DNA of 64,000 nucleotides from Vreelandella nigrificans. GTDB taxonomy: Bacteria > Pseudomonadota > Gammaproteobacteria > Pseudomonadales > Halomonadaceae. The notes beneath the pieces were generated by a model, which made no database searches, was not told the origin of the DNA, and saw only the letters and a program-made list of their open reading frames with translations. The DNA lies in NCBI RefSeq assembly GCF_002374315.1, contig NZ_NWUX01000009.1:62001-126000 (forward strand), in the 5' to 3' direction. The position numbers were made by a program, and so were the translations under genes. Shown here one piece after another: positions 7,510 through 63,439 of this stretch; the first letter of the stretch is position 1, and each line of letters starts with the position of its first letter.

Positions 7510-8673
7510 ATGACATCGCCACTCACACAGCTGCGTAAGTTTGTCGCTCCTGAAATTATTTTTGGCGACGGGGCACGCCACGCTGCAGGCAACTACGCCA
7601 CCACCTTTGGCGCAGAAAAGGTGCTCCTGGTATCCGACCCAGGCGTGCTGCTGGCAGGCTGGGTTGCCGATATTGAAGCTAAACTGCTGGAAGCCAACAT
7701 TGCTGTTGAACGCTTTACTGCCGTATCGCCCAACCCACGGGTCGATGAGATTATGGCCGGTGCCGAGATCTATCGAGAAACCGGCTGCAAGGCGATTGTG
7801 GCGATAGGCGGCGGCAGCCCCATGGACTGCGCCAAGGGGATTGGCATCGTCACCGCCCACGGCGGCCACATTCTCGACTTCGAGGGTGTGGATACCATTC
7901 GCGTGCCGATTCCTCCACTGATTTTTATTCCTTCAACGGCGGGCACCTCGGCGGATATTTCTCAGTTTGCGATTATTTCCGATCAGCAGCGCCGCATGAA
8001 GTTCTCAATCATCAGCAAGGCAGTGGTGCCGGATGTGTCGCTGATCGACCCTGAAGTCACCATGACCATGTCGCCCTACCTCACCGCCTGCACCGGGGTT
8101 GACGCGTTAGTGCATGCCATTGAAGCCTTCGTTTCAACCGGCAGTGGCCCACTCACTGATGCCCATGCTTTAGAAGCTATGCGTTTGATTAGCAGCCATC
8201 TCGAAGCGCTGGTCGCCAACCCCGCCGACGGCGAGCTGCGCGCCCAGGTAATGCTGGGCAGCATGCAAGCGGGGCTAGCATTTTCTAATGCCATCCTGGG
8301 AGCGGTACACGCTATGTCCCATAGCTTGGGCGGCTTTTTAGATTTACCCCATGGCCTGTGCAATGCGATGCTGTTAGAACACGTGGTCGCCTATAACTAC
8401 GAAGCCGCACCAGAGCGCTTTAAACGGGTCGCCGAGGCAGTCGGCATCGACTGCCGGGGGCTGTCACAGCAGCAGGTCAAACAGGCGCTGTTCCAGTACC
8501 TAGTCGATTTAAAGCACGCAGTTGGCCTAGGGGGGACGCTTGGCAAGATGGGTGTCTCACGCAGCGACGTGCCGTTTCTTACCAACCATGCGCTAGGCGA
8601 TCCCTGCATATTGACCAACCCTCGCCGCTCCAACTCACGAGACGTGGCAGTGGTGTACGAAGAGGCGCTATGA
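7510..8673 (+). CDS. ercA: iron-containing alcohol dehydrogenase, ErcA-like
   Basis: The protein has 387 residues, the usual length of group III Fe-dependent alcohol dehydrogenases. A longer open frame continues upstream through the 12-bp repeat, but the ATG at 7510 has AGGA seven bases before it, and family members start MTSPLTQLRKF as here. The NAD(P) motif GGGSPMD is present, and the metal site is seen in GVDALVHAIEAF and HAMSHSLGGFLDLPHG (one Asp, three His). In P. aeruginosa ErcA lies next to the kinase ErcS and is needed for full ethanol oxidation control; here the kinase overlaps it by 4 bases. Its real substrate is unsettled: it may serve signalling by removing an aldehyde rather than carbon flow. 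Confidence 0.88.
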   Translation: MTSPLTQLRKFVAPEIIFGDGARHAAGNYATTFGAEKVLLVSDPGVLLAGWVADIEAKLLEANIAVERFTAVSPNPRVDEIMAGAEIYRETGCKAIVAIGGGSPMDCAKGIGIVTAHGGHILDFEGVDTIRVPIPPLIFIPSTAGTSADISQFAIISDQQRRMKFSIISKAVVPDVSLIDPEVTMTMSPYLTACTGVDALVHAIEAFVSTGSGPLTDAHALEAMRLISSHLEALVANPADGELRAQVMLGSMQAGLAFSNAILGAVHAMSHSLGGFLDLPHGLCNAMLLEHVVAYNYEAAPERFKRVAEAVGIDCRGLSQQQVKQALFQYLVDLKHAVGLGGTLGKMGVSRSDVPFLTNHALGDPCILTNPRRSNSRDVAVVYEEAL

Positions 8674-10367
8674 AAAAAGCCAACGACCCGTCAGGTTTTT
8701 CGGTCAGCGACCTGCTCGGGCTCGGTCAGCAGTCAGCACGCAAAAGCTACTATCGTGAGCTTTCTGTGCGTTTAGAAGAGCTTGAGGTTGAGCGCAACCG
8801 CTATAAATGGCTATTTGAAAACGCGCTACACGGTATTTTTCAAGCATCGCTTTCCGGCACGCTGCGCGCTGCTAACCCCGCGCTCGCCGCCATGCTCGAC
8901 GACCCTAGCGTAGCGCATACGCTAGAGCGTTGTGCGCGCTTTGACGCGCTATTTGTCAGTAGCACAACTGGCCAGCAGCTACGCGACCTGCTGATCGTTC
9001 AAGGACACGTAACATGCCAAACCACCTTGCTACAGGGGGCTTCTGGTAACCAAGTGCCCGTCGCCATTACGCTGATCAAGAAGCCCGCCGAACTTGCCGG
9101 CGACGAAGACCTGATCGAGGGCTTTGTGGCAGATATTACCGAACGTGAGCGTGCCCGCCAGCATTTAGAAACACTCAATGCCCACTTGGAAGCACGGGTA
9201 GCTGACCGCACCCAGGAACTTGAACGGCTCAACGAAGCGCTTAGAAGCGCCCGCGATGCCGCTGAGTTTGCGAATCAGAGCAAAGACCGCTACTTAGCCG
9301 CCGCTAGCCACGACCTATTGCAACCGATGAACGCTGCACGGTTACTCGTGGCTTCGCTGCAGGAACGGCTGACCGACAGCGATAACTTAGCCTTGATTGA
9401 AAGCGTGCAAAATTCATTGGAAGGTGCCGAAGCGATTCTTTCCGACCTGCTGGATATCTCCCGTCTGGACCATGGTCAAGTGCAACCCCAACTGCGCCAC
9501 TTTAAACTCGACGATATCCTGTGCAATCTCGCCGATGAGTTTGCTCCAGTAGCGCAGCGCAAGGGGCTAACGCTGCGCTATGTACCTTCACATCAAGCGG
9601 TAACCAGCGACCCTTATCTACTCAGCCGTATTGTGCGCAACTTTCTTGCTAACGCCTGTCGCTATACTCAGCGCGGCGGCATCTGCCTAGGCGTTCGCCG
9701 TCATAGTGACGATAGGCTGGCCATTCAAGTGGTCGATAGTGGTATCGGTATTCCCGAAAGTGAATATCAGCTTATTTTCCGTGAGTTTCACCAGCTCAAC
9801 GCCACCCGCGCACGGGATCGCCAAGGTGTAGGTCTGGGGCTTGCCATTGTGGAACGGATTAGCCAGCGCCTCGAGCATCCGCTTGCTGTACGTTCAGCGC
9901 CGGGCCAGGGCTCCTGTTTTGCAGTTGAGGTGCCCCGAGCCAGCGGCATCTCCTTTAGCCAAATACCCTCCCCCAGCGCACCGCCTTCGGCTGGCGATGA
10001 GTTCGAAGGGCTTCGCGTACTGATACTGGATAACGAGCCGACTATTCTCGAAGGTATGGCACTACTGCTAAGCGAATGGCAAATCAGTTGCGATACCGCA
10101 CTGGACCTGGATGCTGCAAAAGCCTGCCAGGAGGCACCAGATATGCTGTTAGTAGACCTGCACTTAGACGACAACGTCACTGGCCTGGAGGCCATTCGAC
10201 AGCTGCGCCAGCACTGGCATGACCCACACTTACCAGCCGCTATTCTCAGCGCCGACCGCTCCGACCACTGGCAACGCCGACTTCGCCATGCGGGCGTGCC
10301 GCAGCTAAACAAGCCGGTACGCCCTGGAAAACTACGCGCACTGCTGCGTAGTCTGCTCAATGGCTAG
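8670..10367 (+). CDS. ercS: cytosolic PAS hybrid histidine kinase, ErcS-like
   Basis: The protein has 565 residues with no membrane segment or signal peptide. Order: PAS-like sensor (about 40-160), a coiled coil (165-205), a HisKA domain with phospho-His214 in ASHDLLQPMNAAR, an ATPase domain with NFLANACRYT, VDSGIGIP and GVGLGLAIV, then a C-terminal receiver with acceptor Asp496 (LLVDLHLDD). The SHDLLQP H-box is typical of the NahK/ErcS/ErcS' kinases. ErcS is part of the kinase network that controls ethanol oxidation genes through ErbR in P. aeruginosa, and it is adjacent to ercA there too. It overlaps ercA by 4 bases and the following M16 gene by 8. The likely partner is the response regulator at 12548-13219. 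The signal is unknown. Confidence 0.83.
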   Translation: MKKANDPSGFSVSDLLGLGQQSARKSYYRELSVRLEELEVERNRYKWLFENALHGIFQASLSGTLRAANPALAAMLDDPSVAHTLERCARFDALFVSSTTGQQLRDLLIVQGHVTCQTTLLQGASGNQVPVAITLIKKPAELAGDEDLIEGFVADITERERARQHLETLNAHLEARVADRTQELERLNEALRSARDAAEFANQSKDRYLAAASHDLLQPMNAARLLVASLQERLTDSDNLALIESVQNSLEGAEAILSDLLDISRLDHGQVQPQLRHFKLDDILCNLADEFAPVAQRKGLTLRYVPSHQAVTSDPYLLSRIVRNFLANACRYTQRGGICLGVRRHSDDRLAIQVVDSGIGIPESEYQLIFREFHQLNATRARDRQGVGLGLAIVERISQRLEHPLAVRSAPGQGSCFAVEVPRASGISFSQIPSPSAPPSAGDEFEGLRVLILDNEPTILEGMALLLSEWQISCDTALDLDAAKACQEAPDMLLVDLHLDDNVTGLEAIRQLRQHWHDPHLPAAILSADRSDHWQRRLRHAGVPQLNKPVRPGKLRALLRSLLNG

Positions 10368-12558
10368 GCTGAGCTTTCCCCAGGCTTATACCTCACTGCC
10401 TAACGGAGCGCAGGGAGTACTGGCCCACGCGCCACACTTAGCCCGCGCTCACGTCAGTATCGCTATTTCGGCAGGCTATCTGGATGAGCCACACGCCCTA
10501 CCAGGGTTGGCCCACTTGCTGGAGCACGTGCTCTCCACTGCCCCGCTGGCTGCATCACCTAATACCAGTCTGCTAGCTTGGTTTACCCAGCACCAGGGCA
10601 GACTGAACGCCCGCACGGATGACTACGTCACCGATGTGCACTTTTCGATACCGGTCAGCAAGCTAGCAGCGGCAGCGATAACGGTTGCCGCCCAGCTGGC
10701 CAACCCACGTATGCCCCTACCGACTATTCACGCCGAGGTCGCGGCCATTGATGCCGAGTGGCAAGCTCGCCAACATAGCCGCCAGATGCAGCGCCTGGAT
10801 GCTCTCGCGGCATTGGCTAACCCACAGCACATCGGTGCAGGCTGCCGTCACGGCAACGCACAAACGCTGGGCCAGGACGCAGAGGCACTATTAAAGATGC
10901 TGACCAGATTTCACCGCGACCATTACCACGGCGGCCGCGTTAGCATCGCGATGATCAGCTCCTGGCCCATGGAAGAGATGGGCAGCCTTGCCGAACACAT
11001 GGCAGCGTTGTTTACCCCACCGCCACCTCAAGCACCAACGCTAGCCATAACGCCCCGCTGGGGCCGCTTACCCAACGCAAAGGTGAGAGAGTCTAACGAG
11101 AGAGGGGCTAACAATAACGTTGAGTATTTCTGGCCACTGCCGTCGGTCACTTCATATCATCAGTTTAGCGCCCTTATCAACTTAGCTGATTCGCTAAACC
11201 AGGGCCACTTAGCTGAGCAGCTGCCTGATTCGGTTACTCACTACCACGCCACTACCGCCCCTGCTGGGGCAACGGATAGCTTTAGCCTGCAGCTTAGCGG
11301 TGCTTTACAACCAGACGCAGTGCTGGCACCGCTGACCGACCAGCTCAACCAATGCATCAGTGGTCTAGGCTTTGACATACTTCGCGAACGTGGCAACGCT
11401 TGGCAACCACCTACCGATACCGTACAGCTAGCCCCTGCTTGGTTTGCACACGCCCGCCACCAAGCAGTTGCTCGCCGCTACGCCACGCTACCTGCTAACC
11501 ACCAGCCATTAGCGGGTTCTATGTTCACCATTGGCAATGCTCGCTGGCTAATAGGAGATGCGCCAACGGCCCCTGCTGCTGCCACTTTTGACATAAAGCC
11601 AACACCTCCCCCCACAGTGCAGTGTTGGTATGGCCAGTACGATGTTCAGGCTGATTTCAATACGCTTACCGATGATGCCTGGGCGGCCTGCTTTATACCT
11701 GGAGCAGTGATCGTACCCAGCCCACTAATCGCTCAGTGGCTAGCCCGTCAGGGTATGGTCTTCAAGCAGGAGAACTCGCCTCGCGGCAGTTGGGTGATGG
11801 TCGTCGGCAGCAGGGCGAACCATGCCATGCTGGCGCTGTTGGAAGCAGCGACATTAGCGCTACCCGCAGCCCAAGAAGGGCTGCTAGCTCAACAATTGAT
11901 ACAGCGCCTAATGTCACTGCCTGCCACGCCAGCGGTATGGGTCTCCCATCAGGCGGAGTCAGGCACAATCACTCAGGCAGTTGCCGACCTCGTTAGTCGC
12001 TTACCAACCTATGCTGGCAACATATCTGGAGGCACTCCATCAGCCGCCGGTTCCCACCCAGCGAGTACCGCAGTAATGCGCACGCTGCGTTTACCAGGCA
12101 CGCCTGTTCAACGCTGGCTATTAGCGGTCGCGGAAACGCATCACAGCGCACTATTTTTTCAACAGGCACGCGACAAACATCGCTTGGGCTATGTGGCAGC
12201 GGTTCGTAGGGGCGATGGTGCGCCCTGCTCGCTGGGCTATGTGGTGCAAACCCAAACCAACGAAGACGTAGGCTCTATTGAGGAAACGCTTAAGGCGATT
12301 ACCGGTGCCCTATGGCAAGGGACGAATAGCACTCAGTGGAAACAACCAGCCACTCCAACAGCGCCTGAAACGCCGTTGGCCGCGCTGATCATCCAGTGGC
12401 AAAGCCTACTTTCCGGTGCCGTTCAGCCGTTACATCGGCTAGCGTGGGAAAACCTTACCCCGGAAGCATTTACCGAGTTACTAACTCAGCTAAACACCTT
12501 CGGACGCTGGCAAACCCACCGACTGGATAGCACTGGCCACTATCTCGTCAGCGATTGA
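10360..12558 (+). CDS. pqqF: M16-family metallopeptidase, PqqF-like
   Basis: The protein has 732 residues, slightly shorter than typical PqqF. The inverted zinc motif HLLEH is near residue 50 ([13 protein letters not shown]), with the downstream acidic residues in [10 protein letters not shown] that complete the zinc site of insulinase/pitrilysin peptidases. PqqF cleaves the PqqA peptide after the PqqE crosslink during PQQ synthesis. The C-terminal half is poorly conserved, with Ala/Thr/Pro-rich linkers. No pqqA-E genes are in this window, so they must lie elsewhere if the pathway is complete. The gene overlaps the kinase gene upstream and runs 11 bases into the convergent regulator gene. Confidence 0.8.
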
Positions 12559-13219
12559 GGAACTGTGAAAAATCGATATCGTTAGCCGATAAAACTGCCT
12601 GTACGCGGCTGGTAACCCCCAGTTTGCGCAAAATAGCCGACACATGGGCCTTCACCGTGGTTTCGGCAATATTCAGGTGATAAGCAATCATCTTATTGGA
12701 TTCGCCACGGGTCATGTGCTCTAGCACTTGCAGCTGTTTACGGGTGAGCAGTCGTAGCTGCTCTGCAGTAAAGCCCTGCTCCTGGTGACGGCGCTTGTGA
12801 ATGCTATCTGGGGCACGCATGGCCTCGGCAGGCAGAAAGATATTCCCCTCCAGCACCTGGGCAATGGCGAGGCACATCTGATCACGAGGCAATGACTTGG
12901 TAATAAACCCCGCCGCACCACAGGAGACCGCCTGAAGGATAATCTGCTTATCCTCTTCAGCCGAGACAATCACCACTGGAATAGTGGGTTGCTCGTTGCG
13001 CAGCTGCAAAAGTCCCGTTAAGCCGTTCATTCCCGGCATATTTAAATCTAGCAATATCAAATCAATATCAGAGTCTTGCTGAGCATGGGCGAGGGCCGCA
13101 TCGAAGTTTTCCACTTCGATAACGTCAGCATCTGCATAAGCCTCACGGACCACACGTGCCATAGCCTCGCGCACCAGGGGATGGTCGTCGGCAATCAGGA
13201 ATTTGTAAGTCGCTGTCAT
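12548..13219 (-). CDS. LuxR/NarL-type response regulator, ErbR/AgmR-like
   Basis: The protein has 223 residues. A receiver domain (1-125) carries the acidic pair Asp11-Asp12 (the first in IADDHPLV), acceptor Asp58 in [11 protein letters not shown] and Lys in FITKSLP. A LuxR-type helix-turn-helix occupies about 155-215 ([35 protein letters not shown]). This matches the AgmR/ErbR class that switches on PQQ synthesis and quinoprotein dehydrogenases in pseudomonads. Being at the end of a run of pqqH-ercA-ercS-pqqF supports control of this locus, possibly with the adjacent kinase. It is transcribed toward pqqF and the two stop codons overlap by 11 bases, so antisense interference is possible. Confidence 0.85.
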
Positions 13220-13320
13220 TATTATGGTTGCCTATGGTTAAGCTAAATCCCGCTTACGGTATCCTGTTTAACACTTTACTGATTCGCCCGCTTTTATTGA
13301 AGTAACTTCCACGCCTTTAT

Positions 13321-56044: not shown

Positions 56045-57169
56045 TTATGAGCGATCTTGCTCTGGCAGGCTTTCTGCAGTGAGCTTGTCCTGATCGTTCT
56101 TTAGCACAAATCTCTGAAGGAAACTGCGAAGTAGCCACCCAAGCCACTTCGGGTTGGCTTGCACCCAGGTATAACAGGCTTCCAAGCGACAGCCCATCTC
56201 GATTTTTCCTTGCTCGTTGGAGATCCCAAAGTTGATACTCCGCATTCCTTTGCTGATGGCATGACGCACGATTTGGTAGCCCATCACACGGTGGATGGGC
56301 AGGCGTCCTGTTGCCTGTAGATCCACACCGCAATAGGTAGATTCCAGGTGATCGCCTAGGGTAAAGCAGAGGTCGAACGCATCAATGCGTCCGTCCTTTC
56401 GTAGCAGCAACCATACTGCATGCTTGAGCTGCCCCATATGCAGAAAAAAATCTTGAGGGACCATAATCTGGTCGGGCGAGCGGTGTTTCTGGTAAAGCTG
56501 TAACCACAAGGCATGCAAGCGCTGCGCCTCATCTAGCGAGAGCGCTTGCCCTTCACGAACGTCAACGGTGTAGCCTGCTTTTTCCAGAGTCCGCATATCC
56601 CGACGTAGGCGTTTGCGCTTGGGGTGTTGCATCAGATACTGACCGAAATCTGCCCAGGTAAGCTCCAAATGTGCACAGTTGTAGAGCTTGTCCAGCGGCA
56701 GCTTCTGGAGGTAGTCAGGTGCAGGAAAATCCCGCCCGACGAATAATCGAACTCCATGCTTCATCGAAGCCTGTTCCAGCGCAGCTACCAAGCGGTAACG
56801 TAGGCTTGTTGAGTTCGGGGTTGCTGCCAGCATCAGTGGCAACCCAGTATTGACGGGCGTTCCCATGGTGGTGACACGCAATGAGGCTTTATATGGCAGG
56901 TGGATGCGCCATATGGTGGCGACAGCAGCGCCAACCATTTCGCCATTGGAAATGGCCAGCGCATAGAGATACTGGCACTCCAGACCGCTGGCCTCAAGAG
57001 CAGCCATATACTCATAGCTGCAGAACTGATGGGGGTGACACAATTGATTCCAAGACGTTCGATCAATCGTGGCAATCGAATCCCTTATATCAATCAGTAC
57101 CGCCGCCTCAGCGATATCTTCTGTGCGGCTTGGAAAACCGGACCGCACCACCTGCTCCACGCGCTTCAT
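56045..57169 (-). CDS. GNAT/BioF2-like N-acyltransferase
   Basis: The protein has 374 residues, cytosolic. GGGAG lies seven bases before the ATG. Two GNAT-fold halves resembling the BioF2/FemAB-like group: SYEYMAALEAS in the first half, and in the second the segment KRKRLRRDMRTLEKAGYTVDVREG, ALWLQLYQKH and INFGISNEQGKIEMGCRLEACYTWV. Such enzymes N-acylate amines, and members act as bacterial ceramide synthases or peptidoglycan amino acid transferases. It is 15 bases after an alpha-oxoamine-synthase-like gene, so the likely acceptor is the amino ketone made by that enzyme. The donor acyl group is unknown. Confidence 0.72.
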   Translation of the reverse strand: MKRVEQVVRSGFPSRTEDIAEAAVLIDIRDSIATIDRTSWNQLCHPHQFCSYEYMAALEASGLECQYLYALAISNGEMVGAAVATIWRIHLPYKASLRVTTMGTPVNTGLPLMLAATPNSTSLRYRLVAALEQASMKHGVRLFVGRDFPAPDYLQKLPLDKLYNCAHLELTWADFGQYLMQHPKRKRLRRDMRTLEKAGYTVDVREGQALSLDEAQRLHALWLQLYQKHRSPDQIMVPQDFFLHMGQLKHAVWLLLRKDGRIDAFDLCFTLGDHLESTYCGVDLQATGRLPIHRVMGYQIVRHAISKGMRSINFGISNEQGKIEMGCRLEACYTWVQANPKWLGWLLRSFLQRFVLKNDQDKLTAESLPEQDRS

Positions 57170-57184: not shown

Positions 57185-58450
57185 CTAATTCATCTCCACC
57201 AACAGCGGCTCATTCACGAGTCTGGATGGATCACTGTCACCAAGCAGCACCTCCAGGCTTTGGGCAAAACCTTCAATCTCCGCATCAGTGTGGTATCTGT
57301 GCAGGATCAGCCGTATCAATGCCTGATTGGGCTTGACTGCCGGGTAACGGAAAATCGGTACGCAAAAGCCTTGTTTCTCCAACTGCTCTCGCACTTGCTC
57401 GGCCTTACTGTCCTTCCCGATCAGTACCGACGTTATATAGGACGGCGTGTCATTGAGCTGCAGGCCACTATCAAGCAAGCGCTGTCGGAACGCCAAGCTT
57501 CTGCATAGGTAATCATCCATGATGGATGGGTCCTGCTTGAGCTGCTCAATGATGGATGCCGCTGCGTCCGCTGTGGGTGGCTGAATGGCTGCAGTGAAAA
57601 TCGACGTTCCACTCAATACTTCGAAGGCATCAATGTACTCAGCGTTGGCACTGATTGCGCCGCCTTCCAGACCCACTGATTTTGAGAGAGAAATCATGAT
57701 GAAGTCGGCACGACGAAGATGTTGGAACTCCTCATAGAAATTACGCTGAGGCTCGCCATACACCATGAAGCCATTGGCATCATCGATGTAACTCAGGGCT
57801 TGGAAGCGTTCACATACATCCAGAATTTCTCCGATAGGTGCCACGCTTCCATCTGAAGAATAGACACTTTCAAAGACGACGATCGCTTTGCGATCTCCAA
57901 CGTTCTGCAGAACACGTTCCAGATCAGCGACATCGTTATGCTTGAATGCCATTAGCGATTCACCGTATTTCAAGTGGCTCGCTGCTTTCCAGAGACTCCA
58001 GTGGCAATCACGATCGAAGACTAACACGGCATCCCGATTGTCAATGCCGCTGCTGGTGGAGAAATTGAACTTTGCCGTCATCGCATTGATGAAGCCGAGG
58101 TTGGCCAACATGCCCGATGCAAACGTTAGCGTTTTGTCTTTACCATGATGCTCGCTGAGCAACGTTTCCAATCGGAAATGCGGCTCACAAACACCCTGCG
58201 TCGCCCTTGAACCACCGGTGGAGAGCCCATAGCGCTTGACCGATTCGCAGAATGCATCAAGCACCTGTGGATCCTGCTGCCAGCCAAGATAGTTAATCCC
58301 CGAGAAATTCACATAAGGGAGACCATTACGCGTGATACGTGAACCGGACATCCCCTGCATGATGACGGGTTCTCGCAGAAACCCCTCAGAGACTGAAGAC
58401 TCAACGAAGCGTTGAAAGCCCCAGCGGTCCACCTTTGGCAAGATATCCAT
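57185..58450 (-). CDS. alpha-oxoamine synthase-like PLP enzyme
   Basis: The protein has 421 residues. GGAGGGGG precedes the ATG at 58450; a longer frame to 58501 is unlikely. It shares the fold of AONS, KBL, serine palmitoyltransferase and the autoinducer synthase CqsA: GGSRATQGVCEPHFRLE, ASGMLANLGF, stacking His150 (FDRDCHWSLW), FESVYSSDGSVAPI, and PLP-Lys257 (ISLSKSVGLEGG). It deviates where the family has DE(A/S)H: here it is DDAN (223-226), so the conserved His is Asn. These enzymes condense an amino acid with an acyl-CoA or acyl-ACP. The companion acyltransferase suggests an N-acylated amino-ketone product, a small lipid or a signal. No bioA-D, cerR or acp gene is next to it. Confidence 0.8.
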   Translation of the reverse strand: MDILPKVDRWGFQRFVESSVSEGFLREPVIMQGMSGSRITRNGLPYVNFSGINYLGWQQDPQVLDAFCESVKRYGLSTGGSRATQGVCEPHFRLETLLSEHHGKDKTLTFASGMLANLGFINAMTAKFNFSTSSGIDNRDAVLVFDRDCHWSLWKAASHLKYGESLMAFKHNDVADLERVLQNVGDRKAIVVFESVYSSDGSVAPIGEILDVCERFQALSYIDDANGFMVYGEPQRNFYEEFQHLRRADFIMISLSKSVGLEGGAISANAEYIDAFEVLSGTSIFTAAIQPPTADAAASIIEQLKQDPSIMDDYLCRSLAFRQRLLDSGLQLNDTPSYITSVLIGKDSKAEQVREQLEKQGFCVPIFRYPAVKPNQALIRLILHRYHTDAEIEGFAQSLEVLLGDSDPSRLVNEPLLVEMN

Positions 58451-58532: not shown

Positions 58533-58592
58533 GACAGATGATCGTCCCACCGATTTACTGACACTTTTCAGAAGCGGGTTTATCGTTGCAGC

Positions 58593-58636
58593 GCAATATC
58601 AAGCAACGTTCAAGAATACATCAAGATTTCATGAAG
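58593..58636 (-). promoter_or_regulatory. four-fold 11-bp direct repeat (CTTSAT array A)
   Basis: On the minus strand half-sites CTTCAT, CTTGAT, CTTGAA and CTTGAT start at 58636, 58625, 58614 and 58603, each exactly 11 bases apart. This is one helical turn, as in OmpR/PhoB/PmrA-class sites. The array lies 142 bases ahead of the alpha-oxoamine synthase gene and overlaps the ribosome site of the response regulator gene, so it may act on both. The binder is inferred to be the adjacent regulator. Confidence 0.65.
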
Positions 58637-58645
58637 GAGTGGCCA

Positions 58646-59344
58646 GTGAGCTTGGGACGTGTATTGATCGTCGAGGATGACTTCGATGGGGCCGAGGTGC
58701 TCGAAGCCTACCTTGGCAGGGATGGCTTCAAGACCCGACATGCAGCAGATGGGGATCAAGCACTGGAGTACCACGCGCGTTGGCGCCCGGATTTAGTGCT
58801 GTTGGACATCATGCTGCCAGGGCTAAGCGGTAATGAGGTGCTCACCGCCATTCGCCAGCATTCAGCAACACCGATCATCATGGTGACTGCTGTCGGGCAT
58901 GAACCCAGCCGTATTAATTCGCTACTTTATGGGGCCGATGACTACGTCGTTAAGCCATATAACCCAGGTGAAGTAGTCGCGCGGGTTCACGCGGTATTAC
59001 GCCGTTGGCGTGGTGGTGGCCTCGGGCAGACCACCTTGCTACGCCATGATCGCTTGGTTATCGATCTCAATGCAGCGCTGGCTACCATTGAAACTGATGG
59101 CGTGACTCAGCCCCTGGAGTTAACTCGCACCGAGTTCAGCCTGCTGTCGATGATGATGGCAGCACCTTCTCGTATGTACACCCGCGCGGAGCTACTTGCC
59201 AACTGCCTTCCAGAAAGTGATGCAATGGAACGGGTGGTTGATGCTCACCTATACAACCTACGACGCAAACTGGAGCGTGCCGGTATTAATGGTGTCGTAT
59301 TGACAGTACGGGGGCTAGGTTACCGCTTCCGCAATCCTTCATGA
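58646..59344 (+). CDS. OmpR-family response regulator
   Basis: The protein has 232 residues from GTG at 58646, six bases after AAGGAG; upstream in-frame starts (ATG 58631) would include that site. A receiver with acceptor Asp54 (LVLLDIMLPGLSG) and Lys in DDYVVKPYNPGE, and a C-terminal winged helix (LELTRTEFSLLSMMM; VVDAHLYNLRRKLE; VRGLGYRFR). Similar to BaeR/QseB-type regulators of envelope stress. It overlaps the kinase gene by 4 bases. Candidate binder of the CTTSAT arrays. Confidence 0.93.
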   Translation: MSLGRVLIVEDDFDGAEVLEAYLGRDGFKTRHAADGDQALEYHARWRPDLVLLDIMLPGLSGNEVLTAIRQHSATPIIMVTAVGHEPSRINSLLYGADDYVVKPYNPGEVVARVHAVLRRWRGGGLGQTTLLRHDRLVIDLNAALATIETDGVTQPLELTRTEFSLLSMMMAAPSRMYTRAELLANCLPESDAMERVVDAHLYNLRRKLERAGINGVVLTVRGLGYRFRNPS

Positions 59345-60516
59345 GCACGGCAAAGAAAGGCCGTTCCCGGCAACTCTGGTACTGGATCAGCCTACGAATG
59401 ATTGGCCTCGCGCTGATGGCCATACTGGTCGTGGGTGCCGGTATGTGGCTACGCTTTTTCTGGTGGGAAACCAAGCTGCGAAACGCACTCCCCAAGGAAA
59501 TACTCCAAGAATTGAAGCTGCTGGAAACCGATCATGTCGCCAATGCTGAGCGTCTGCGTGAAATCTATGGGCAATATCTCTATGGCGATTACTTTACACC
59601 AGAGGTGCTACATGCGGACCTGCTGTGGTTCAGTGGACTTGTACTGATCGCCCTTCCTCTTATCATTGGCGGGGGTATTTGGGTCTCATTGCGTCTATCA
59701 CGCCAGCTCAGTGTTGTTGCAATCGCGGCAAGGCACATTGCTGGCGGTGATTTCCGCTCGAGAGCAAGTATTATTCCCGATGCTCCCGCCGCACTCCACC
59801 ATTTAATAGCCGACTTCAATCACATGGCCGAACGCTTAGAACGCCATGAACGGGAGTTACAGGCATCCAGTGCCGCCATCGCCCATGAACTGCGTACGCC
59901 TCTCACCGCCGCCAAAGGGAGGCTGCAGGGCCTGATAGATGGTGTCTTCGAAGCCTCGCCACAGCAACTAAGCACCATCATGCGGCAACTAGATCAACTT
60001 AATCGTCTGATCGATGATTTGTACTTGTTATCGCTGGCGACAGCAGGTCAGTTGGTTTTGATACCATCAAGCTTTGCCCTCAAACCACTGATGGAAGAGC
60101 GAGTGGTCTGGGCAGCACCACGATTACAGCAGCACCCCATGAAGATTGTGATCGACTGCCCGGACGATGTACTTCTAAATGCCGATCGCGATCGCCTCGG
60201 TCAGGTAGTTTCCATCCTGATCGACAATGCATTGCGCTACGCTGCAACTGGCGACTATTTGGCACTACGCGCCACCCGACAAGGAACGAAGGTATTGATC
60301 GATGTCGAAGACGCTGGCCCTGGTTTTGCACCGGAGCATATAGAGCGTGTGTGCGACCGCTTTTGGCGTGCCGAGCATTCACGCTCGCGCCATGCAGGCG
60401 GCAGTGGGCTGGGGTTATCGGTGGCAGTAGCTATATGCCAAGCCCATGGTGGACAGTTGAGTGTTCACAATCGAGGGACGGGCGGCGGGCGCATCCACAT
60501 CGAGTTACCTGCCTGA
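59341..60516 (+). CDS. HAMP-containing sensor histidine kinase
   Basis: The protein has 391 residues. Membrane helices at about 18-40 and 94-116 flank a small 53-residue periplasmic loop. HAMP (about 117-170), HisKA with phospho-His182 (AAIAHELRTPLTAAKGRLQG), and HATPase with DNALRYA, VEDAGPGFAP and GGSGLGLSVA. A loop this short suggests sensing of membrane or periplasm-edge signals. Partner of the regulator ahead of it. Confidence 0.93.
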   Translation: MSTAKKGRSRQLWYWISLRMIGLALMAILVVGAGMWLRFFWWETKLRNALPKEILQELKLLETDHVANAERLREIYGQYLYGDYFTPEVLHADLLWFSGLVLIALPLIIGGGIWVSLRLSRQLSVVAIAARHIAGGDFRSRASIIPDAPAALHHLIADFNHMAERLERHERELQASSAAIAHELRTPLTAAKGRLQGLIDGVFEASPQQLSTIMRQLDQLNRLIDDLYLLSLATAGQLVLIPSSFALKPLMEERVVWAAPRLQQHPMKIVIDCPDDVLLNADRDRLGQVVSILIDNALRYAATGDYLALRATRQGTKVLIDVEDAGPGFAPEHIERVCDRFWRAEHSRSRHAGGSGLGLSVAVAICQAHGGQLSVHNRGTGGGRIHIELPA

Positions 60517-60569
60517 TTATAGGCGGCATTACTCTGAAAACGGATGCTTGTTGAGCCCGCTCCACGGCT

Positions 60570-60591
60570 CTTGATGAAGTCTTCATCTTTT
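60570..60591 (+). promoter_or_regulatory. 11-bp direct repeat (CTTSAT array B) before mipA
   Basis: Half-sites CTTGAT (60570) and CTTCAT (60581) are 11 bases apart, and weaker matches CTGGAC (60592) and CTTGTA (60603) keep the phase. It is 67-88 bases before the MipA-like start. Confidence 0.6.
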
Positions 60592-60657
60592 CTGGACGAT
60601 ACCTTGTAGTGAGGAGGGTTCACTACCGGGGTAACAACTCGGAAAGGATGAACAACC

Positions 60658-61527
60658 ATGCGTAAGCCTGCTTCTCAACGGATGCAAAAAGGGTGTTTGG
60701 CAAGCCCTGCCTTATCAATTATTGCAAGCGCCGTCTGCCTGCTGATGCCACTGCAAAGTTTGGCTCAGCAGCATCACCAAACTCAGCAACAGGGCACCGA
60801 TACACCCGCCAGCCTATTCGGCGATACAACTGAAGTTGTGGTGGGGCTGGGGGCGGCCTACATTCCCCGTTACCTCGGCGCAAAAGATTCACGAGCCATA
60901 CCGGTACCAACACTGAGCATATACCGCGGTATCTTCTTTGCCGATACCGTGCGCGCCATCGGGACAGAGTACCTGACTCAAAACGGGCTTTACGCCAGCA
61001 TGGCGATTAGCTACGACTTCGGCCGAACCGAAAAAGACAGTGACTGGCGCCCTGGATCAACGCGTCTCCAGGGAATGGGGGAAGTTAAGGGTGCGACTAC
61101 CGCTAACTTCCTGCTGGCTCAGGAGTTGACCTCCTGGCTCTCGGTCAATGGTGAAGCTGATCTGCGTGTAGCTGGCCATGAGCGAGGCAATCGTTACCGA
61201 CTAGGCCTGGAAAGCACCATACTGCGAACGGACAACGATGTGTTCACTCTCGGCGTAAACATGCACGCCGGTGATGGCCGCTACAACCGCACCTATTTCG
61301 GCGTGAACGATGCGCAAGCTCAAGCTTCGCGATTTTCCCATTTCAATGCTGAATCCGGCGTCTACGCCTATTCGCTCTCGGCAGACTGGCATCATGACTT
61401 CAACAGGCACTGGACGATGTCTCTTGGGGTGAATGTCATGGAGTTCAGCGACAAGGCGCGTAACAGCCCAGTGGTGGAAGAAAAGACCGGTGTGGCGGGG
61501 TTTGCTGCATTGCACTACTCGTTCTAA
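60658..61527 (+). CDS. MipA/OmpV-family outer membrane protein
   Basis: The protein has 289 residues. Signal peptide (about 1-38) ending at LAQQ, then a beta barrel with alternating strands (VVVGLGAAYIPRYLGAKDSRAIPVPTLSIYRGIFF; LSADWHHDFNRHWTMSLGVNVMEFSDKARNSPVVEEKTG) ending in the C-terminal aromatic F required for outer membrane insertion. MipA is a scaffold of murein synthesis or an outer membrane stress protein; it is often induced by envelope stress. AAGGAT lies before the ATG. Confidence 0.9.
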   Translation: MRKPASQRMQKGCLASPALSIIASAVCLLMPLQSLAQQHHQTQQQGTDTPASLFGDTTEVVVGLGAAYIPRYLGAKDSRAIPVPTLSIYRGIFFADTVRAIGTEYLTQNGLYASMAISYDFGRTEKDSDWRPGSTRLQGMGEVKGATTANFLLAQELTSWLSVNGEADLRVAGHERGNRYRLGLESTILRTDNDVFTLGVNMHAGDGRYNRTYFGVNDAQAQASRFSHFNAESGVYAYSLSADWHHDFNRHWTMSLGVNVMEFSDKARNSPVVEEKTGVAGFAALHYSF

Positions 61528-61538
61528 GGCAGGCAACA

Positions 61539-61757
61539 ATGATGTGCGCATATAAGCAGACAACCTCCGCATTACGCTCCCGATGCCGGATACTTATTTG
61601 GCTGGCCTGCATCTTGGTGACCGCCTTATTGTTGGTAAGTGGTGTTCGGTTTCTTATGAGCGAGCCACCTAGGCCAGTACTGGATAAAGCAACTCAGAGT
61701 CACCCTGTGCCAGACAATTCTGTGCAGAGTGATCCGGTACAGAGCCCCCCTCCTTAA
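61539..61757 (+). CDS. small single-span membrane protein
   Basis: The protein has 72 residues, 11 bases after mipA. One hydrophobic helix (about 18-41) and a Pro/Ser/Gln-rich tail (SHPVPDNSVQSDPVQSPPP). No family is recognised. Probably translated with mipA. Confidence 0.6.
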   Translation: MMCAYKQTTSALRSRCRILIWLACILVTALLLVSGVRFLMSEPPRPVLDKATQSHPVPDNSVQSDPVQSPPP

Positions 61758-61820
61758 AGACTCCCTAGCCTCTCATAATTGATCGGCCAATAGCGGATAA
61801 TGCAAAGGTGCCCCTCTCCT

Positions 61821-61875
61821 GGTTCGTCACGAACCAAGCACTGATCAGTGATAGGCCCGCCATGTTTAGGCGGGC
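61821..61875. promoter_or_regulatory. three consecutive hairpin/dyad elements
   Basis: A 6-bp dyad around 61821-61835, a perfect 12-bp palindrome CACTGATCAGTG at 61839-61850, and a 7-bp stem GCCCGCC/GGCGGGC at 61855-61875. The last could terminate the mipA operon, since T is scarce but a ten-C run follows. Confidence 0.5.
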
Positions 61876-61876
61876 T

Positions 61877-61886
61877 CCCCCCCCCC
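61877..61886. repeat. ten-C homopolymer
   Basis: Ten consecutive C on the plus strand between the hairpin and array C, upstream of the efflux gene. Such tracts vary in length in other bacteria and can be sequencing errors. Confidence 0.9.
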
Positions 61887-61889
61887 GCA

Positions 61890-61933
61890 CTTGATGAAAC
61901 CTTGATAAGACATTGAAAGGTCGTTGACGGGTA
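61890..61933 (+). promoter_or_regulatory. four-fold 11-bp direct repeat (CTTSAT array C) before the efflux gene
   Basis: Half-sites CTTGAT (61890), CTTGAT (61901), ATTGAA (61912) and GTTGAC (61923), 11 bases apart, with TTGA kept in all four. It is 25 bases before the outer membrane factor start. Confidence 0.65.
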
Positions 61934-61957
61934 AAGAGCACACTTCCGTTCAGGCTC

Positions 61958-63439
61958 ATGGATCGGAAATCTCACATCATGTCATTGCACTGGAATGCAG
62001 CACTTCTGACCGTGCTGCTATCAGGCTGTACCACTTTGATACCGCCTCACACCCTCCCTGAAAGCACTTTACCTACGCATTACCAGCAGGGGTATGGCCC
62101 CAACACCAAGGATGCTGCATCGGCCTCAGCGGCTAATATCGCCTGGCAGGACTATTTTCGTGATCCTCACTTACAGAACGTAATCCTTCAGGCACTACGC
62201 CACAACCACGACCTGCGTAGTGCTGCTTTACGGGTTCAACTGGCACAGGCAGCCTACCGCATTGAGCGCAGCGCACAGCTACCCGGTGTTGACCTGGGAA
62301 TGGATGCGAAGCGCTCGCGCACCCCGTCCGATTTGTCGGCCACCGGCAGCGCCCTGAGCAGCAATGAGTTTCAGGTAGGCGTGGGGGTTACCAGTTGGGA
62401 AGTCGATCTCTGGGGCCGTATCGCCAGCTTGAACGAAGAGGCCTTGCAAACATTTTTGGCAACTAATGCTGGCCAGCGAGCAGTGACAATCAGTTTGGTG
62501 GCACAGGTAGCCGATACCTGGCTTAGCTTATACGAGCTGAATGAACGGCTGCGTCTCGCTCAAGCGACTCAAGCCAACCAGAGCGAATTACTGCGCATCT
62601 TCACGCGGCGGTTTGAGGTGGGAGCAGTCACCAAGCTGGAGCTCACCCAGGTACAGACGCTGGTGAACCATGCAGAGGGCTTGGTGCTGCAACTGCAGCA
62701 GCAACGTGATCTGCAGCGCAATGCACTACACCTACTGATCGGCCGGGCTGACCTCATCGACTTCAACTATAAGCCTTTTGCCAATTCCCCTCTGCTTCAG
62801 CCTCTGGATGCGGGACTACCATCCGACCTGCTAACCAACCGCCCGGATATCGTCGCCGCTGAGCATCGCCTGCGCGCGGCTAACGCGCATATCGGCGCAG
62901 CCCGAGCGGCCTTCTTCCCACGTATCAGTCTGACTACTTTCGGCGGTTTAGCCAGTGGCGAACTGAGCGATTTACTCGAGGGAAGCAGCCGTGCCTGGAA
63001 CTTTGCTCCTAGCCTGTCGTTGCCAATCTTCGATGCTGGGCGGAACCAAGCCAACCTGGACTTGGCGGAAGTGCGCAAAGACCTTGCCGTCGTCGAGTAC
63101 GAACAAACCATCCAAAGTGCCTTCCGCGACGTCGCAGATGCCTTGGCTAACCAGCACTGGCTACAGCAGCAACTATCCGTACAGCAGCAAGCCGTCGAGA
63201 TTCAGGCCGAACGCAGCCGACTGGCACACCTGAGCCATGAACGTGGTCGCGCCAGTTTCTTGGAAGTGCTTGATGCCGAGCGTGACCGCCTGGAGACCGA
63301 ACAGCAAAAGGTGCAAGCGCAGCATGCACTACTCCGCAGCCGGGTGGCGCTGTACGCCGCACTGGGTGGTGGTACGCAGCACCTGCCCCCAGCCGATCAA
63401 CCGGTGTCTGCCCTGTCTTCAAATATCGCAGAGAAGTAA
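61958..63439 (+). CDS. NodT-type outer membrane efflux factor (lipoprotein)
   Basis: The protein has 493 residues. The ATG at 61958 gives a basic n-region before the signal; one at 61979 is an alternative. Lipobox LLSGC with Cys, then two OEP halves (about 60-260 and 275-470) with the conserved N..DL..A.LRVQLAQAAYRIERSAQLPGVDL, and RPDIVAAEHRLRAANAHIGAARAAFFPRISL. It forms the outer membrane channel of a tripartite exporter with the HlyD protein that follows. Confidence 0.92.
   Translation: MDRKSHIMSLHWNAALLTVLLSGCTTLIPPHTLPESTLPTHYQQGYGPNTKDAASASAANIAWQDYFRDPHLQNVILQALRHNHDLRSAALRVQLAQAAYRIERSAQLPGVDLGMDAKRSRTPSDLSATGSALSSNEFQVGVGVTSWEVDLWGRIASLNEEALQTFLATNAGQRAVTISLVAQVADTWLSLYELNERLRLAQATQANQSELLRIFTRRFEVGAVTKLELTQVQTLVNHAEGLVLQLQQQRDLQRNALHLLIGRADLIDFNYKPFANSPLLQPLDAGLPSDLLTNRPDIVAAEHRLRAANAHIGAARAAFFPRISLTTFGGLASGELSDLLEGSSRAWNFAPSLSLPIFDAGRNQANLDLAEVRKDLAVVEYEQTIQSAFRDVADALANQHWLQQQLSVQQQAVEIQAERSRLAHLSHERGRASFLEVLDAERDRLETEQQKVQAQHALLRSRVALYAALGGGTQHLPPADQPVSALSSNIAEK

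Follow-up and report, generated by a model that had tools for sequence, protein, structure and literature searches.

An 11-bp-phased CTTGAY operator predicted for a mipA-linked, AdeR/DzrR-like response regulator of Vreelandella nigrificans

Introduction

Which protein, if any, reads three patches of phased repeats that surround a two-component system in Vreelandella nigrificans? The patches lie in a 64,000-nucleotide stretch of DNA (assembly GCF_002374315.1, contig NZ_NWUX01000009.1, positions 62,001 to 126,000 of the forward strand), which we call the window and whose own coordinates are used throughout. Within 3.3 kb near its end (positions 58,593 to 61,933) the window carries a response regulator gene, a sensor histidine kinase gene and mipA, the gene of an outer-membrane protein, followed by the start of an efflux operon. 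A first-pass annotation, made from the letters alone, had noticed arrays of CTTSAT repeats (S is C or G) at 11-bp steps near three gene starts, and had proposed that they mark a small regulon of the OmpR-type regulator encoded among them. We compared these arrays (A, B and C) with the rest of the window, with the rest of the genome and with the loci of related regulators. The outcome is that the adjacent regulator probably controls mipA, an ATP-binding cassette (ABC)-type efflux operon and a divergent oxoamine-synthase/acyltransferase operon, a prediction that rests on sequence comparison.

Results

The window was scored with four half-sites matched to CTTSAT at a fixed step, for a maximum of 24. 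At a step of 11 bp, arrays A, B and C score 23, 20 and 20 and are the top three of the 64 kb. The next score is 17 once the registers overlapping A, B or C are set aside, and eleven other steps (7-10 and 12-18) give a window maximum of 17 or 18. Re-reading of the sequence and this step-controlled scoring bear out the three arrays as first described. For array A the half-site letters hold and the start does not: it had been placed at 58593, and the true start is 58598. A run of ten C residues occupies positions 61877-61886, three bases 5' of array C; such tracts can vary in length.

The arrays were then sought beside related regulators. At least 80 loci with related regulators were available, of which 28 were taken on, together with 14 loci of the same family; the gene matches listed for these loci span at least 80 residues, and those to the response regulator and histidine kinase have at least 38% identity. 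The conservation set was defined by a regulator identity of at least 51.5% and comprised 28 upstream and 25 downstream stretches, with shuffled controls that could be up to 3% shorter than the stretches themselves. Upstream of the regulator, the best array at step 11 reaches at least 17 in 20 of the 28 loci, compared to 0-2 loci at any of fourteen other steps and no more than 2 in any of 30 shuffles. Averaged over the loci, the best score is 16.96 at step 11, where the other steps give 13.3-14.3 and the shuffles 13.6. These 20 loci are 19 of the 26 loci of a clade whose half-site reads CTTGAY (Y is C or T), plus one locus of a CTCCAY type (L110); the two types are described below. In Pseudomonas, Xanthomonas and Enterobacterales, too, related regulators have the same array in the same place. 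Within the clade it is mostly on the minus strand and directly 5' of the regulator start, and array A is disposed alike. Beyond the kinase gene, a step-11 score of at least 18 is reached in 8 of 25 loci, and at the other steps in none.

A reciprocal search used a matrix built from 34 arrays of the relatives (effective number 16), selected by score and by eye, with the window and its nearest relative (L105, in genome G018) excluded. The three top-ranking places of the 64 kb are C (38.0), A (30.7) and B (21.7), in this order. The next score in the window, a register overlapping A aside, is 10.9, and the best score of 30 random windows is 16.6. In two relatives the array stands far from the regulator. 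At L033 it lies upstream of an outer-membrane-factor/mipA pair, 6.6 kb off, and at L010 upstream of mipA, about 6.5 kb off, with a matrix score of 16.3, just below the best random one. From these two positions, the operator seems to go with mipA or with the operon of mipA. The slot divergent from the regulator is usually taken, in the relatives that we examined, by mipA or by an outer-membrane-factor operon; here it holds the oxoamine-synthase operon, and mipA and the efflux operon each have a separate array.

In L105 the array 5' of the regulator is strong (matrix score 29.4). When genome G018 was searched with the four-half-site pattern at three mismatches, five matches were obtained (control 2), namely this array and four others that we assume to be due to chance. 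Another match of the matrix in L105, with a score of 13.8, stands just before the apparent start of a 16S rRNA gene (by eye); it was taken as an ordinary promoter and set aside. The layout of L105 differs in its efflux genes: behind mipA come an HlyD-type adaptor and a frame for a pump that by eye is of the resistance-nodulation-division (RND) type (positions 8197-13270 of that locus), and the divergent slot holds the outer-membrane factor; the present genome has an ABC-type efflux operon instead.

The half-site letters fall into two types. All 13 family loci L106-L118, whose regulators are 47-52% identical to that of the window, match CTCCAY-N5-CTCCAY at 11 or 12 of 12 positions, where the same scoring at seven other steps gives means of 8.6-9.6; L105 matches CTTGAY at 11 of 12 and CTCCAY at 9 of 12. 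One branch with support 100/99 separates the CTTGAY (24) from the CTCCAY (15) rows of a 43-regulator tree, the labels having been assigned after the operators were seen, with L010, L018, L033 and L036 left unlabelled and with long-branch warnings from the tree program. The recognition helix differs accordingly at three positions, which align with PhoB residues 194, 200 and 201 in our own numbering. On the CTTGAY side they hold V, Y or H, and N, each in 24 of 24 sequences; on the CTCCAY side they hold T (14/15), S (15/15) and K (14/15). The regulator of the window has V, Y and N. For PhoB itself, base contacts in both half-sites are described for Thr194, Val197 and Arg201 (PMC3973317). The two sides differ also in their neighbourhood: mipA lies inside the examined stretch at 25 of the 26 CTTGAY-side loci, compared to 0 of 16 on the other side, and in the single exception (L032) the stretch ends upstream at a contig end.

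From the helix we derived a rule, in which Y or H followed by N denotes CTTGAY and S denotes CTCCAY. The rule agreed with the better-scoring upstream operator in 33 of 33 further loci, of which 17 are near-copies of others or had already been seen. The sites of L144-L146 were on view before the rule was scored. With near-copies and stretches that were already in the earlier set removed, the agreement was 16 of 16 (11 CTTGAY, 5 CTCCAY). The regulator belongs to a mipA-linked sister clade of AdeR/DzrR that is predicted to read CTTGAY rather than CTCCAY, apparently because the residues of the recognition helix differ (V, Y/H and N for T, S and K). We found no CTTGAY direct-repeat operator described in the open-licence literature that was searched.

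Next, the genome of V. nigrificans was searched as a whole (4.93 Mb, 84 contigs). The scan for CTTSAT-N5-CTTSAT, which the first-pass annotation had proposed as a check on its motif, gave six exact pairs against three for the reversed-pattern control, with three of the six inside this 3.3 kb (binomial chance of at least three, 6e-9). The exact pairs are one each in A, B and C, two overlapping registers at position 62942 of contig C8, and one on contig C15. The last was rejected as an operator, as it sits within a long coding frame. This frame resembles rnr. Allowing one mismatch in the pair raises the count to 96 matches (control 32); such pairs are too common to be informative, unlike exact pairs or longer arrays. 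The pattern of four half-sites, when up to three mismatches are allowed, has nine matches (control 3), which are A, B, C, two registers of the C8 array and four others. With at most one mismatch it is present in 3 of 201 family genomes: in the present one at A and C, with zero mismatches, and in two others at one site each. Those two sites (L177 and L178, in genomes G081 and G011 of one genus of the family) each carry one mismatch and are nearly identical to each other.

The array on contig C8 (C8:62942-62980, or 7943-7981 of the stretch L007) is strong, with three CTTGAT half-sites and then CTGGAC at 11-bp steps and a matrix score of 24.9. It is located between an isochorismatase-domain gene and the gene of an AraC/DJ-1-type regulator, 155 bp upstream of the former and pointing away from it. 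The hexamer 10 bp beyond the array is GAAGTG, unlike a -10 element. The stretch is matched in part in 8 of 61 genus genomes (its own included), and none outside its own covers the array itself. The C8 array is perhaps a distant target of the regulator. The consensus had been thought specific to the locus of the window. This did not hold, given the further strong array at C8 and the same operator beside related regulators in other bacteria, and a consensus private to the locus is ruled out.

In the relatives, the arrays keep a fixed distance to a -10-like hexamer: matches to TATAAT peak exactly 10 bp past the fourth half-site, with a mean of 3.79 of 6 for 24 upstream arrays and 4.30 of 6 for 10 downstream arrays; the next distances reach 2.25 and 3.30, respectively. 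Of the 15 CTCCAY loci inspected for this, 14 have CAGACT, CAAACT, CACACT, CACAAT or TATAGT at 10 bp, L035 being the one without. The pho box of PhoB is likewise some 10 bp upstream of the -10 element. Candidate -10 hexamers at this distance from A, B and C are given in Table 1. For the regulator gene, the promoter scan returned one site against 2.5 expected in shuffles, which is not above expectation; for this reason the candidate promoter of Table 1 is a suggestion only. Array A would lie directly downstream of its start point.

The regulator has a receiver domain (PF00072, 93.8 bits) and a Trans_reg_C winged helix (PF00486, 64.8 bits), both over their cut-offs. Among the 25 NCBIfam models listed for it, the top one is AdeR (NF012227), at 227.2 bits for a cut-off of 340; neither BaeR (NF007982; 159.5 bits, cut-off 380) nor PhoB (TIGR02154; 175.8 bits, cut-off 296.2) reaches its cut-off. 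The 11-bp spacing had been read as the hallmark of PhoB/PmrA/QseB-class regulators. It does fit the family, as outlined in PMC4832192, but the closest named relative is AdeR. PmrA was rejected as nearest kin, with 103 bits for its model against 227 for AdeR, and QseB is absent among the 25 models listed.

Behind array C, the outer-membrane factor heads an efflux operon that runs on beyond the window and includes genes for an HlyD adaptor, for a double ATPase fused to a permease and for an ABC-2 permease. In the fused protein (L009 8518-11274; 918 residues) a pair of ABC ATPase domains is joined to an ABC-2 membrane domain; the ABC-2 permease adjoining it is separate. The oxoamine synthase and the FemAB/GNAT-like protein, on the divergent side, may make an acylated amino-ketone lipid. 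Within the family, the synthase is matched at E <= 1e-110 in 1 of 201 genomes (this one), mipA at E <= 1e-45 in 2 of 201 (G018 besides this one), and the regulator at E <= 1e-60 in 15 of 151, with identities of 100% in this genome, 75% in G018 and 47-52% in the others. This distribution hints that the present lineage acquired the locus. A small frame at 61542-61757, between mipA and array C, encodes a 71-residue peptide with one hydrophobic stretch.

Table 1. Arrays, genes and candidate promoter elements of the locus, in window coordinates
Feature	Positions	Strand	Remarks
Array A	58598-58636	minus	Four half-sites, 11-bp steps: CTTCAT 58631-58636, CTTGAT 58620-58625, CTTGAA 58609-58614, CTTGAT 58598-58603; aimed at the divergent oxoamine-synthase operon, within the leader of the regulator gene
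Array B	60570-60608	plus	CTTGAT 60570, CTTCAT 60581, CTGGAC 60592, CTTGTA 60603; upstream of mipA
Array C	61890-61928	plus	CTTGAT 61890, CTTGAT 61901, ATTGAA 61912, GTTGAC 61923; upstream of the outer-membrane-factor operon
Candidate -10 AACGAT	58582-58587	minus	10 bp past A; 3/6 match, weak
Candidate -10 TTCACT	60619-60624	plus	10 bp past B; 3/6 match, weak
Candidate -10 CACACT	61939-61944	plus	10 bp past C; 3/6 match, weak
Candidate regulator-gene promoter CTGACA-17-TATCGT	58558-58586	plus	Overlaps the opposite-strand candidate -10 of the divergent operon
FemAB/GNAT-like protein	56045-57169	minus	Likely co-operonic with the oxoamine synthase
Alpha-oxoamine synthase	57185-58450	minus	ATG at 58450, behind GGAGG, is the likely start; gene divergent to that of the regulator
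AdeR/DzrR-like response regulator of the OmpR/PhoB subfamily	58646-59344	plus	GTG start preceded by AAGGAG
Sensor histidine kinase (HAMP, HisKA, HATPase)	59341-60516	plus	
mipA (PF06629), outer-membrane protein	60658-61527	plus	128.8 bits, cut-off 24.2
Outer-membrane efflux factor, NodT type	61958-63439	plus	Alternative start 61979

Discussion

The computations establish the arrays themselves, their conservation, the -10 spacing in the relatives, the association of clade, helix and operator, and the linkage to mipA. Given these, A, B and C are very probably operators of the adjacent regulator, through which it would activate the mipA, efflux and oxoamine-synthase operons as a member of the CTTGAY-reading clade. 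The small regulon that the first-pass annotation proposed for the neighbouring OmpR-type regulator gains support as a prediction: the arrays recur beside orthologues, they front distant mipA operons, and their letters covary with the recognition helix. The comparison also supports, at the same predictive level, a widening from a motif of one locus to an operator of a whole clade.

What we infer for the working of the system is binding, its dependence on phosphorylation, activation, autoregulation and a signal of envelope stress. A signal from the envelope would be passed by the kinase to the regulator through phosphorylation. The phosphorylated regulator would then fill the four CTTGAY half-sites cooperatively at their 11-bp steps, head to tail, as two dimers or as a tandem tetramer. 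Cooperative binding that extends to three and four phased motifs is described for PhoP of M. tuberculosis (PMC4832192). With its last half-site 10 bp upstream of the -10 element, the occupied array would replace the -35 box as at PhoB-type activated promoters, possibly with contact to the sigma factor. In this manner the bound regulator would activate mipA from B, the outer-membrane-factor/HlyD/ABC efflux operon from C and the oxoamine-synthase/acyltransferase operon from A. At A, just beyond its own candidate promoter, it could also damp its own synthesis.

Several observations weigh against this assignment. Two of the four half-sites of array B are weak, and the three candidate -10 hexamers of the window, at 3 of 6 matches each, are compatible with the spacing yet weak. 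The upstream score stays below 17 in 7 of the 26 CTTGAY-clade loci, although in two of these seven (L010 and L033) the array stands at the mipA operon instead. In L105, the nearest relative, the array before mipA (position 8073) has a matrix score of 7.2, below the best random score. The matrix test is itself partly circular, because the arrays of the relatives were chosen with the motif of the first-pass annotation, whereas the step controls are not circular. Several margins of the helix rule are narrow (10 against 9 of 12 at some CTTGAY loci, 10 against 8 at L146), and L036, which has a CTCCAY-type helix and stands outside the 33 loci, shows no clear operator.

The alternative that survives best, improbable as we consider it, concerns the sense of regulation, with the regulator at the arrays mainly a repressor or a roadblock and not an activator. 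The position of array A, within the leader of the regulator gene and directly downstream of a candidate promoter, speaks for this; that promoter, however, does not exceed the shuffle expectation, and the single fixed distance of the -10-like hexamer in the relatives is the layout expected where an activator stands in for the -35 box. It is more improbable still that some other OmpR-type regulator of this genome, and not the neighbour, has its operators in the arrays. Many regulators of the OmpR/PhoB subfamily bind direct repeats about one helical turn apart, according to PMC4832192, and the link between site and protein is computational only; against this, the half-site letters track the adjacent regulator in both its clade and its recognition helix, this regulator alone is matched at E <= 1e-60 in its own genome, and the arrays are as rare in the family as described above. 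A chance run of short AT-rich repeats can practically be dismissed. The shortness of the half-sites, the degeneracy of several of them and the frequency of one-mismatch pairs speak for it, but chance is rejected by the step, shuffle, genome-wide and cross-species controls and by the conservation of the arrays at fixed places in distant relatives.

With activation by the adjacent regulator as the preferred reading, a broader picture can be drawn, to which we lean with moderate confidence. The AdeR/DzrR-like regulators would form two sister clades with a common promoter design, whose half-sites are switched by two or three residues of the recognition helix. The CTTGAY clade would run a separate and widespread envelope response centred on mipA, with a regulon that can be predicted from sequence, and in V. 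nigrificans its operator, in the divergent slot that mipA or the efflux operon has in relatives, would have come to serve a lipid-like oxoamine-synthase/acyltransferase operon. The value of the analysis is twofold: three patches of repeats become a predicted regulon of jointly controlled envelope genes that lends itself to testing, and a recognition rule leads from helix residues to operator letters.

Comparison with known systems

PMC11892822 describes AdeR-like regulators that bind direct repeats in A. baumannii and E. cloacae, and PMC10052836 does so for Dickeya and Burkholderia. AdeR of the A. baumannii AdeRS-AdeABC system is the closest of them, as the best NCBIfam model among those listed and the best solved DNA-binding domain (5x5l), with a divergent layout and 11-bp direct repeats in common. 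The AdeR-like loci mostly share the four-half-site design and the hexamer 10 bp beyond it. The regulator of the window stays under the AdeR cut-off, and its half-site is CTTGAY, not CTCCAY, with V, Y and N in the helix instead of T, S and K. AdeR drives an RND pump, whereas the targets predicted here are mipA, the ABC-type efflux operon and the oxoamine-synthase operon.

A second AdeR-like regulator of efflux under envelope stress is DzrR of Dickeya oryzae (DesABC), and PMC10052836 describes its recognition of two CTCCAT direct repeats 11 bp apart; its activity is reported there to need neither phosphorylation nor an adjacent kinase. Its half-site and its RND pump set it apart: the pairs of the window are of the CTTSAT type, with no two-CTCCAT target. 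The AdeR box, quoted in PMC10052836 as AAGTGTGGAGN-AAGTGTGGAG, reads on the opposite strand, in our own reading, as CTCCAC-N5-CTCCAC. On this reading the boxes of AdeR and DzrR, which that paper treats as different, would be one CTCCAY-N5-CTCCAY box seen on opposite strands.

The pho box of PhoB offers a more distant parallel, as a winged-helix regulator binds direct repeats head to tail (PMC3973317, PMC4832192). Its box, given as CTGTCAT-(A/T)4-CTGTCAT in PMC4832192, its helix residues and its phosphate regulon are different. BesRS of Burkholderia thailandensis resembles the present system in having a MipA/OmpV gene among its targets and in its response to envelope disturbance, and differs in the cis element proposed for it (PMC9426598). 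In ParRS-MipBA of Pseudomonas aeruginosa, a two-component system stands beside mipA as it does here, with MipB as the difference (PMC10936184). According to the same source, MipA is a polymyxin-binding outer-membrane protein that acts with ParRS and is proposed as a polymyxin sensor, and most mipA loci screened by its authors adjoin a two-component system, with a signalling role proposed.

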